This document shows positions 37,978-43,327 of a DNA stretch of 44,977 nt, in pieces. This DNA comes from Demequina sp. (GTDB lineage: Bacteria > Actinomycetota > Actinomycetes > Actinomycetales > Demequinaceae). Position 1 is the stretch's first letter. Every line of letters begins with the position of its first letter. The DNA lies in the NCBI RefSeq assembly GCF_024642165.1, contig NZ_JAHEBP010000003.1:1-44977 (forward strand), given 5' to 3'. A program made the translations under genes and the position numbers. The notes below the pieces were generated by a model, which was not told the origin of the DNA, searched no databases, and worked only from the letters and a program-made list of their open reading frames with translations.

Positions 37978-38817
37978 ATGACAGGCCGGATCGTGCTCGC
38001 CGCGACGCCCATCGGCAACGTCGGGGACGCATCGGACCGCCTCAGGCACGCGCTCGCGACCGCGGACGTGGTGGCCGCTGAGGACACGCGCCGCGTGCGC
38101 GACCTCGCGCATCGGCTCGGCCTGCGCATCACCGGCGAGATCGTCACCCACCACGACCACAACGAGGGCGAGCGCGCCGCGCAGCTGGTCGAGCGCGCGC
38201 GGGAGGGCGCGACCGTGCTGGTGGTGTCCGACGCGGGCATGCCCGCCGTCTCCGATCCGGGATTCCGGGTGGTCGAGGCCGCGGCCGCCGCCGGCGTCGA
38301 CGTCACCGTGCTGCCCGGGCCCTCGGCGGCGCTCGCCGCGCTGGCGCTGTCGGGGCTGCCCACGGACAGGTTCGCTTTCGAGGGGTTCCTGCCGCGACGT
38401 TCCGGGGAGCGCGCCGCCCGGCTCGCCGGGCTCGCCACCGAGGAGCGCACCCTGGTCTTCTTCGAGGCCCCGCACCGCCTCGCCGCGACGCTGGTGGCGA
38501 TGGCCGAGGCCTGGGGTGGCGACCGCGCCGCCGCGGTGTCCCGCGAGCTCACCAAGACCTACGAGGAGACCCGCCGCGGCACGCTCGCCCAGCTCGCCGA
38601 GTGGGCGGAGCAGTCCGAGCCGCGCGGCGAGATCGTGGTGACCGTCGCGGGGCGGCCCGCACAGGCGCCGGGCATGGCGGCCCTCGTGGGCGAGGTGCTC
38701 GACCGCGTGGAGGCCGGGGAGCGCGCCAAGGCCGCGGTGGCGGACGTGGCCGCGACCGCGGGGGTGCCCAGCCGCGAGCTTTACGCGGCGGTGCTGGCGG
38801 CACGGGGGCCTCGATGA
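37978..38817 (+). CDS. rsmI: 16S rRNA 2'-O-methyltransferase RsmI
   Basis: The 279-residue enzyme methylates C1402 of 16S rRNA with S-adenosylmethionine. Motifs of the tetrapyrrole-methylase-like fold are all present: IVLAATPIGNVGDASDRLRHAL, VVAAEDTRRVRDLAHRLGL, HHDHNEGERA, VLVVSDAGMPAVSDPGFRVVEAA, VLPGPSAALAALALSGLPTDRFAFEGFLPR and ERTLVFFEAPHRLAATL. Length is as in the family. Its stop overlaps the next start as ATGA, so it is translationally coupled to the interrupted carboxypeptidase gene. Confidence 0.95.
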   Translation: MTGRIVLAATPIGNVGDASDRLRHALATADVVAAEDTRRVRDLAHRLGLRITGEIVTHHDHNEGERAAQLVERAREGATVLVVSDAGMPAVSDPGFRVVEAAAAAGVDVTVLPGPSAALAALALSGLPTDRFAFEGFLPRRSGERAARLAGLATEERTLVFFEAPHRLAATLVAMAEAWGGDRAAAVSRELTKTYEETRRGTLAQLAEWAEQSEPRGEIVVTVAGRPAQAPGMAALVGEVLDRVEAGERAKAAVADVAATAGVPSRELYAAVLAARGPR

Positions 38818-39659
38818 GGGTCTCCCACGCCCCCGTCTATCGGCGGCGGCGCCGCGTGGCGGCGGCGCTCGCGGCCGCGATCGTGGGGTTGGGCCTGGGG
38901 ATGCTCACCGCCGAGCTGTGGTGGCCGCGCGGGGCGTCGGAGGCCGCCGCCTAGACCCTCGCCGAGCGCACGCCGGCCGCGTCGGCCACCCTGGCGGTCG
39001 CATCGTCCCCGCCCACGACGGCGACCGCGTCCGCCGCCCCCGTCGCGTCGCCGAGCCCCGCGTTCGACACCGCCGCGCACAGTCTCACCGCGCCGGACTC
39101 CCCGTGGGTGGTGGTCAACAAGACCAGCCCGCTCGACCCCGCCGAGTACGCGCCGGATGACCTGGTGACGGTGACCGGCGTCCCCGGGGGAGCGACGATG
39201 CGCGAAGAGGCGGCGGCGGCGATGAGCGCGCTGCGCGCCGCGGCCGCCGAGGAGGGGGCGGGCTTCGCCATCTCGACGGCGTATCGCACGTACGGACAGC
39301 AGGCGGGTCTCTACCAGAGCTACGTGAACCGCTCCGGTCGGGAGCGTGCGGACCGCTACTCGGCCCGTCCCGGCTACTCCGAGCACCAGACCGGCCTCGC
39401 CGCGGACATCAACGGCGGCGGCTGCGACCTCGAGGCCTGCTTCGGCGACACCGCCGCGGGCATCTACGTGGCCGAGCACGCGTGGGAGCACGGCTACATC
39501 GTGCGGTACCCGGAGGGCAAGGAGGCGGTCACCGGGTACATCTACGAGCCGTGGCACCTGCGCTACGTGGGACCCGAGCTTGCCGCAGAGATGCATGAGC
39601 GCGGCATCGACACGCTCGAGGAGTTCTTCGGCCTGCCCGCCGCGCCCGACTACGCCTGA
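38814..39659 (+). pseudogene. VanY-type D,D-carboxypeptidase broken by an in-frame TAG
   Basis: ATG 38814 overlaps the rsmI stop and opens a frame coding RVSHAPVYRRRRRVAAALAA and a membrane signal-anchor, then stops at TAG 38952-38954 after 46 codons. The same frame continues open after the TAG with a Thr/Ala/Pro/Ser linker and a complete peptidase M15 (VanY/DacB-like) domain. That domain has [12 protein letters not shown] (S-x-H-x-x-G-x-x-x-D, zinc ligands His and Asp) and EPWHLRYVG (third ligand). It ends normally at 39659. One substitution would restore an exported peptidoglycan carboxypeptidase of 281 residues. A GTG at 39108 could start the catalytic domain alone, but it lacks a ribosome site and would leave the protein in the cytosol. 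Sequencing error, recent mutation or readthrough are all possible. Confidence 0.8.
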
Positions 39660-39762: not shown

Positions 39763-41547
39763 ATGTCACGCATCCTTTCCGCCGTCGCCTGGCCGTACGC
39801 CAACGGCCCGCGCCATATCGGGCACGTCGCGGGGTTCGGCGTCCCGTCCGACGTGTTCAGCCGATACATGCGCCTGGCGGGCCACGACGTCCTCATGGTC
39901 TCGGGCACCGACGAGCACGGCACGCCGATCCTGGTGCAGGCCGAGGGCGAGGGCGTCTCGGCCCAGGAGCTCGCGGACCGCTACAACCGCGTGATCGTCG
40001 AGGACCTTGCCGCGCTGGGCCTCAGCTATGACCTCTTCACCCGGACCACCACCGGCAACCACTACCAGGTGGCGCAGGCGATGTTCCGGGCGGTGCACGC
40101 GAACGGCTACATGATCGAGCAGACCACTCGCGGCGCGATCTCGCCCTCGACCGGCCGCACCCTGCCGGACCGCTACATCGAGGGCACGTGCCCCATCTGC
40201 GATTACGACGGCGCGCGCGGCGACCAGTGCGACAACTGCGGCAATCAGCTCGACGCGATCGACCTGCGCAACCCGCGCAGCCGCATCAACGGCGAGATCC
40301 CCGCGTTCGTGGAGACCGAGCACTTCTTCCTCGACCTGCCCGCCCTGGTGCAACCCCTCACCGACTGGCTGGGCGCGCGCCACGGCTGGCGACCCAACGT
40401 GCTCAACTTCTCCAAGAACCTGCTGGCGGACGTCCGGCCGCGGGCGATGACGCGGGACATCGACTGGGGTATCCCGGTGCCGCTCGATGGCTGGATCGAG
40501 AACCCCAACAAGCGCCTGTACGTGTGGTTCGACGCGGTGATCGGCTACCTCAGCGCCTCCATCGAGTGGGCGCGCCGTTCCGGCGACCCCGACGCGTGGC
40601 GCCTGTGGTGGAACGATCCGGAGGCGCTGTCGTACTACTTCATGGGCAAGGACAACATCACCTTCCACTCGCAGATCTGGCCGGGCGAGCTCATCGCCGC
40701 CAACGGGCGGGGTGCACGTGGCGGGCAGCTGAGCGAATTCGGCGACCTGCAACTGCCCACCGAGGTGGTCTCGAGCGAGTTCCTCACCATGGAGTCGAGC
40801 AAGTTCAGCTCCTCGCGCGGCCACGTCATCTATGTCCGGGACATGCTGTCGCGCTACCAGCCGGACGCGCTGCGCTACTTCATCGCCGTGGCCGGCCCGG
40901 AGACGTCGGACGCGGACTTCACGTGGGCGGAGTTCAAGCGCCGCACCAACGACGAACTGGTGGCCGGCTGGGGCAACCTGGTCAACCGCACCGCCACCCT
41001 GCTCCACAAGAACGTCGGTAGCGTGCCCCCGCTGGGCGAGCTCGAGGACGTCGATCGCGCCGCGCTCGCGGCGTCGGAGGCCGGGTTCGGGAATGTGGGC
41101 GGGCTGATCGGCGCCCAGCGTCAGCGCGCCGCGATCAGCGAGACGATGCGGGTGGTGGGCGACGCCAACAAGTACCTGGCGGAGACGGCGCCCTGGAAGC
41201 TCAAGAACGAGGACCCGGACCGCATGCGGACCGTGCTCGCGGTGGCGGCGCAGCTGGTCTCCGACGCGAACACGATGATCTCGCCGTTCCTGCCCCACAG
41301 CGCCCAGCAGGTGCATGAGGCGCTGGGCGGCACCGGGATACTCGCGCCCATGCCGCGTGTCGACGAGGTCGAGGACCTGGACCTGCCGGACCGTCGCTAC
41401 CCGGTGATCCAGGGCGACTACGCGGGCGGCGCGTGGGCCCGCACCCCGCTGGTGGCGGGCACGCCCGTCCCCGCACCCTCACCGATCTTCACCAAGCTCG
41501 ACGATCACGTGGTCGAGGACGAGCTCTCCCGGATGGCGGACGAGTAG
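39763..41547 (+). CDS. metG: Methionyl-tRNA synthetase
   Basis: The 594-residue class I aminoacyl-tRNA synthetase charges tRNA-Met. The ATP-binding HIGH motif is in [14 protein letters not shown] (residues 18-21). A four-cysteine zinc knuckle follows at about 143-159 ([18 protein letters not shown]). The second signature appears as K347-F-S-S-S-R, the KFSxSR variant of [20 protein letters not shown] and the helical anticodon domain ([28 protein letters not shown]) are complete. No C-terminal tRNA-binding dimerisation domain is present. ATG 39754 is an in-frame alternative start. Confidence 0.96.
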
Positions 41548-42523: not shown

Positions 42524-43327
42524 GTGAGCTACGGACGTACCAACCCCATGCCCGGAGGCCGCCGGGAGCGGCGCCAGCGGCGCGGCGCGAGGAATCGAAT
42601 CCTGGCTCAGGTGGGCATCGCGGTCGCCGTCGGCTCCTTCGCGGTCGGCTCGATCGCTGCCGCCGCCGTGCCCGCGCTCGACGCGGGTCAGAGCCTCGCG
42701 ACGTCTGCGGACATCGCGGCCCTTCCGGAGATCGCGACCGGCTCCGCGGACGCGGGGGTGGTCACCACCGAGACCGCCGAGGAGTCCCTCGAGCCCGGCT
42801 CGGTGAAGAAGGACGATCCCAACCTCGAGAAGGGCACCACCAAGGTGGTCACCGAGGGTGCTGCCGGCTCGCAGGTGGTCACGTACGACGTCACCTACGT
42901 GGGCGGCGTCGAGGTCTCTCGCGTCGAGACCCTCACCGTGACCGTGGAGCCCGCCACGGACGAGGTCATCGCCGTCGGCACCCGTACCGCACCCGCGGTG
43001 CCCGCCGTCTCGACGGTCTCTCCTGGCACCGCCCGCGCGATCGGCCAGCAGATGGCTGCGGACATGTACGGCTGGACGGGCGACCAGTGGTCCTGCCTTT
43101 CCGCGCTCTGGCAGCGCGAGTCCGGGTGGAACCCCAACGCGCACAACAGCTCGTCCGGCGCCCACGGCATCCCGCAGGCGCTTCCCGGCTCGAAGATGGC
43201 GACCGCCGGAGCCGACTGGGCCACCAACGCCGCCACGCAGATCAAGTGGGGCCTGGGCTACATCAAGGGCCGCTACGGCACCCCCTGCAACGCGTGGAAC
43301 CACTCCGAGACCAAGGGCTGGTACTGA
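42524..43327 (+). CDS. Exported G5-domain lytic transglycosylase-like protein (rpfB position)
   Basis: The 267-residue protein has a basic N-terminus ([15 protein letters not shown]), a membrane/signal segment (about 27-50), a spacer, and a G5 domain (about 88-155; [38 protein letters not shown]). Its C-terminal domain has [35 protein letters not shown] with the transglycosylase glutamate in W-x-R-E-S-G-W, and ends KGWY. The gene stands where RpfB stands in mycobacteria and relatives, but the catalytic domain is of the SLT/aggregation-promoting-factor kind rather than the RPF fold. It should cut peptidoglycan outside the cell. It starts at GTG 42524. Confidence 0.87.

Follow-up and report, generated by a model that had tools for sequence, protein, structure and literature searches.

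An in-frame TAG seen in one Demequina genome separates the signal anchor from the undamaged domain of a VanY-type carboxypeptidase gene

The closest described counterparts of the gene analyzed here are the VanY-type zinc peptidases of Pfam family PF02557 (D-alanyl-D-alanine carboxypeptidase), to which we apply the M15 label. Among these, the LdcB/DacB LD-carboxypeptidases (NF041194) and the VanY and VanXY enzymes of vancomycin-resistance gene clusters (NF000472, NF000473 and NF000380) possess domains homologous to the one considered below, and the entire catalytic domains of the solved relatives 4jid/4mph, DacB (4d0y), LdcB (4ox5) and YodJ (4ox3) can be aligned with it. With regard to internal stop codons, one survey (PMC7918605) presents in-frame stops in bacteria as widespread and possibly acting as short-term regulators, expects a substantial fraction of them to be artefacts, finds those shared between species to be mostly short-lived, and argues that many in-frame stops are read through.

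The gene resides in a contig of a draft assembly of Demequina sp. (173 contigs, 2.20 Mb, 88.9% complete); the whole stretch of DNA that was analyzed, 44,977 nucleotides in length, is hereafter denoted the window. Inspection of the open reading frames (ORFs) of the window shows that the peptidase frame extends from the ATG at 38814, which overlaps the stop codon of rsmI as ATGA (38814-38817), to the TGA at 39657-39659, with a single interruption, the TAG at 38952-38954, which leaves 46 codons ahead of it and 234 open codons behind it (Table 1). The segment preceding the TAG consists of a basic stretch and a hydrophobic segment, that is, a signal anchor, and the linker that follows the TAG has a third-position G+C content of 0.96, which is typical of coding sequence. 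The part of the frame downstream of the TAG matches PF02557 with 124 bits (cut-off 25) over model positions 3-131 of 132 and retains the motifs SEHQTG..D and EPWH, which align to the respective stretches of 4jid and which we take to bear the zinc ligands. Thus, the gene structure proposed in a previous sequence-only reading of this DNA, namely an ATGA-coupled frame after rsmI that is open on either side of a single TAG and encodes a signal anchor, an export-type linker and an intact zinc peptidase without further damage, is confirmed down to the coordinates and the codon count.

Table 1. Features of the rsmI-metG region, in coordinates of the window.
Feature	Positions	Strand	Evidence
rsmI, 16S rRNA (cytidine1402-2'-O)-methyltransferase, upstream neighbour	37978..38817	+	PF00590, 112 bits; TIGR00096, 217 bits (cut-off 168)
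N-terminal signal anchor, 46 codons	38814..38951	+	Sequence; counterparts in orthologs
In-frame TAG	38952..38954	+	Sequence; absent from 43 other genomes of the genus
Linker rich in Ala, Ser, Thr and Pro; frame open, third positions of coding type	38955..39095	+	
VanY/LdcB-type M15 peptidase domain and stop codon	39096..39659	+	PF02557; PDB relatives; changes at 0 of 25 invariant columns
GTG, proposed restart codon, unsupported	39108..39110	+	No G-rich ribosome site; Val codon GTG/GTC/GTT in relatives
metG, methionyl-tRNA synthetase, downstream neighbour	39763..41547	+	PF09334, 453 bits

What sets this gene apart from the PF02557 enzymes is that, in this genome, the TAG separates the anchor from the domain. 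The domain falls short of the cut-off for the LdcB/DacB LD-carboxypeptidases (141 vs 275 bits for NF041194) and of those for the resistance-type VanY and VanXY (88 vs 250 bits for NF000380, 88 vs 425 for NF000472, 74 vs 400 for NF000473 and 59 vs 500 for NF000149); furthermore, unlike the resistance-type enzymes, it is encoded between rsmI and metG, with no van cluster beside it. The predicted product is an M15 carboxypeptidase (VanY/LdcB-like), anchored in the membrane and facing outward, which would trim stem peptides of peptidoglycan, its presumed substrate. The second gene after metG (42524-43327) encodes a protein with a G5 domain (70 bits) and a transglycosylase-like (SLT) end (24 bits), so that this stretch holds two cell-wall enzymes.

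The two halves of the interrupted frame belong to a single gene. In the nearest ortholog by DNA (genome G041; 73% identity over ~960 bases), which starts at -4 relative to the stop codon of rsmI, a very similar anchor, linker and domain are encoded in one unbroken frame, which rules out two unrelated adjacent genes. Beyond this close counterpart, anchors related to that of the window are present in G049, G022, G002, G011, G020 and G043, and the peptidase gene is adjoined by rsmI or metG within ~1.5 kb at 20 of the 24 same-genus loci. Given the anchors of the orthologs, the third positions of the linker and a two-sided coding score that is unique among the candidate internal stops in the scanned part of this genome (see below), the sequences flanking the TAG represent more than an open frame kept by chance. 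At two of the loci (L006 in G002 and L007 in G020), the VanY genes form a tandem pair, with the second copy located between the first one and metG.

The same genome carries two additional genes of this family. One, on contig C97 (G000:C97), is an intact, longer VanY gene that is 63% identical in the domain and has, by eye, an apparent signal peptide; the other, on contig C91, is a more distant PF02557 gene (38 bits). The presence of these genes makes the loss of the rsmI-linked copy plausible.

The peptidase locus was inspected in 43 other genomes of the genus, the sequence-only reading having suggested a comparison of this codon in relatives, and the TAG of the window was found in none of them. 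As in the cases reported in PMC7918605, we are dealing with a single stop in an otherwise constrained gene; in contrast, the large-scale part of that study centred on stops found in orthologs of at least two species. In 40 of the 43 genomes, a start codon and a hydrophobic segment precede the domain in the same frame; the segment is weakest in G007, where the product is lipoprotein-like, and in G021. The remaining three contain frameshifts, in the linker (G049), within the domain (G009) and near the end of the domain (G042), and in each of them the anchor frame passes the site of the TAG without a stop.

In all three of these genomes a nearby basic gene is frameshifted as well, namely glmU in G049, metG in G009 and rsmI in G042. 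Apart from the peptidase gene, metG is split between frames at loci L030 (G009) and L040, and rsmI at L139 (G042) and L040; the latter locus, from Demequina litorisediminis, has the same match figures as that of G042 and includes the additional metG frameshift. The identity of glmU was verified on the copy from G041 (727 bits, cut-off 611). Since genes such as metG and glmU are hardly dispensable to a cell, the three broken relatives look like sequence errors in public assemblies; for the single-contig assembly of G049, the frameshifts in the linker and in glmU point to indel errors. At locus L120 of G049 and at G049:C1 near position 1599880, the anchor and the domain of the peptidase lie in different frames, and glmU is frameshifted. 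A hot spot of breakage at the joint of anchor and linker, as hinted at by G049, was set aside, considering that glmU of G049 is also frameshifted and that no third genome among the 44 is broken there. The sequence-only reading considered that relatives with more frameshifts downstream would reduce the gene to a plain pseudogene: frameshifts do occur in three of the 43 genomes, and all of them look like sequence errors; the other 40 copies are intact. The comparison serves mainly as a caution, since for three of the four genomes of the genus in which this gene is broken, the assembly also has a frameshifted basic neighbour.

Conservation of the domain was assessed in an alignment of 42 sequences (that of the window plus 41 more, after removal of G009, of G042 and of the paralog from the same genome; G049, whose domain is whole, was retained), using a leave-one-out test rather than dN/dS because synonymous sites are expected to be close to saturation at ~70% DNA identity. 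The domain of the window shows changes at none of the 25 invariant columns and at one of the 51 columns with at least 90% conservation; each of the 41 other domains differs at 0 to 7 of the conserved columns, so in this respect the domain is comparable to those of intact orthologs. If constraint on the domain had been lifted, its divergence since then would be bounded (at 95%) by a value between 0.027 and 0.043 neutral substitutions per site. Taken together, the undamaged domain and this bound imply that the TAG is recent, or is absent from the cell, or that the domain is still made; with the nearest relative only 73% identical in DNA, the age of the TAG is bounded only indirectly.

The quality of the assembly was addressed in two ways. 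In a screen of matched genes, which replaced an all-frames BLAST of the window ORFs that was noisy due to shadow frames, 19 genes of G023 and 21 genes of G041 were matched to the window, with 0 and 2 flagged, respectively, both flags located upstream of the start codons of the window genes; breaks close to short N-termini escape this screen, and the peptidase gene, with its short anchor below the threshold, was not flagged. Within the relatives, the same screen yielded, by source of the query genes, 3/20, 4/21 and 7/26 flags for G049, 2/23 and 2/24 for G023, and 0/23 and 1/20 for G041; of these flags, the one traced further was glmU in G049. In addition, 378,954 bases of this genome (the window and 20 stretches, mostly picked because earlier matches sat on the respective contigs) were scanned by a codon-based method, which under loose criteria detected 29 candidate internal stops. 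Only the one at 38952 is clearly coding on both sides (scores 0.35 and 0.25, relative to a line of 0.20 that was set after the table had been seen), and none of the 12 candidates from G041, G049 and G023 is. The scan and the matched genes together argue mildly against a noisy consensus and appear compatible with a single wrong base.

The sequence-only reading further raised the possibility that readthrough of the stop, or a restart, controls export of the enzyme. A recoded genetic code is ruled out by the use of TAG as the terminator of 8 of the 33 ORFs of the window whose stop is visible and by the presence of RF1, which is encoded in this genome with a score above the cut-off. No CUA anticodon, and hence no suppressor tRNA, was detected among the 42 named tRNAs (43 tRNA matches, one of which, at a contig end, is unnamed) of this 88.9% complete genome; the RNA of 100 bases starting at the TAG folds like its shuffles (z -0.04); and an Rfam search over the window recovered a single tRNA and nothing else. 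No in-frame ATG, GTG or TTG follows the TAG for 51 codons, and no ribosome site was found at the first such codon, the GTG at 39108 proposed as a restart. A pattern search over 41 loci of relatives, in which a locus can be missed or can contribute two copies, gave 39 matches; this codon reads GTG in 24 of them and GTC or GTT in the other 15, a synonymous variation indicating that it is kept as a valine codon and not as a start; restart at this codon was accordingly rejected, all the more so as the product would be devoid of both anchor and linker. Literature searches returned no report of stop readthrough associated with a carboxypeptidase in Actinobacteria and nothing direct on premature stops in metagenome assemblies or on LdcB together with VanY.

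Programmed or regulatory UAG readthrough, or restart, that would set the amount of an anchored (or cytosolic) peptidase is compatible with a frame that is open and constrained on both sides of the TAG, and a regulatory role of widespread in-frame stops has been proposed in PMC7918605; yet the stop is not shared by any of the 43 other genomes, RF1 is present with no CUA among the named tRNAs, the downstream RNA is unremarkable in its folding and the GTG lacks the attributes of a start, so we regard this explanation as very unlikely. A more specific version, in which a new, lineage-only UAG would serve as a leaky switch placed between the anchor and the domain, with readthrough supplying a low dose of the exported carboxypeptidase and the paralog supplying the bulk, appears highly improbable. 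An old pseudogene is barely credible: although a premature stop exists, the 234 codons behind it contain no second one, the domain aligns from end to end with all 25 invariant residues kept, and the bound on divergence without constraint, ~0.04 neutral substitutions per site, speaks against it unless the domain is translated in some other way.

The two options of the sequence-only reading that fare better are a base-call error and a very recent mutation, both of which are supported. The most likely account, which we consider somewhat better than an even bet, is a nonsense mutation, young and private to this genome, through which an exported peptidoglycan carboxypeptidase would be lost. Under this scenario, a single mutation would have arisen just after the anchor of the rsmI-coupled gene, translation would stop at the TAG to yield an anchor peptide of 46 residues and no exported enzyme, and the resulting null allele would be tolerated thanks to the second, intact exported VanY paralog. 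A private and presumably disabling change, with intact copies in the relatives, is what we find; the lack of further damage would, however, also be expected from an error or from a gene that is still translated. The alternative, an error of the consensus or of base calling at the TAG, with an intact anchored peptidase in the cell, is a serious possibility even if we lean away from it. The draft comprises 173 contigs and is incomplete, the TAG is the only lesion in a gene whose domain is as conserved as those of intact orthologs, and the three other broken copies in the genus suggest that errors do occur in this set; those breaks, however, are frameshifts and belong to other assemblies, and no second internal stop strongly coding on both sides was found in the 378,954 bases, nor any in the matched genes of the window. 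Either a mutation or an error suffices, and the phenomenon is an ordinary one of a kind already known: gene breaks or sequence errors of this sort, in the form of a stop private to a single draft genome, are commonplace, and the case matters little.

Among the 80 relatives from named genomes that were kept, 10 are labelled Saccharibacteria or Saccharimonadales (L043, L046, L047, L048, L053, L068, L071, L097, L098 and L106), at 41-50% identity, one of them in a complete chromosome. These bacteria are epibionts of actinobacteria, and their copies of the gene may reflect gene exchange with actinobacterial hosts.
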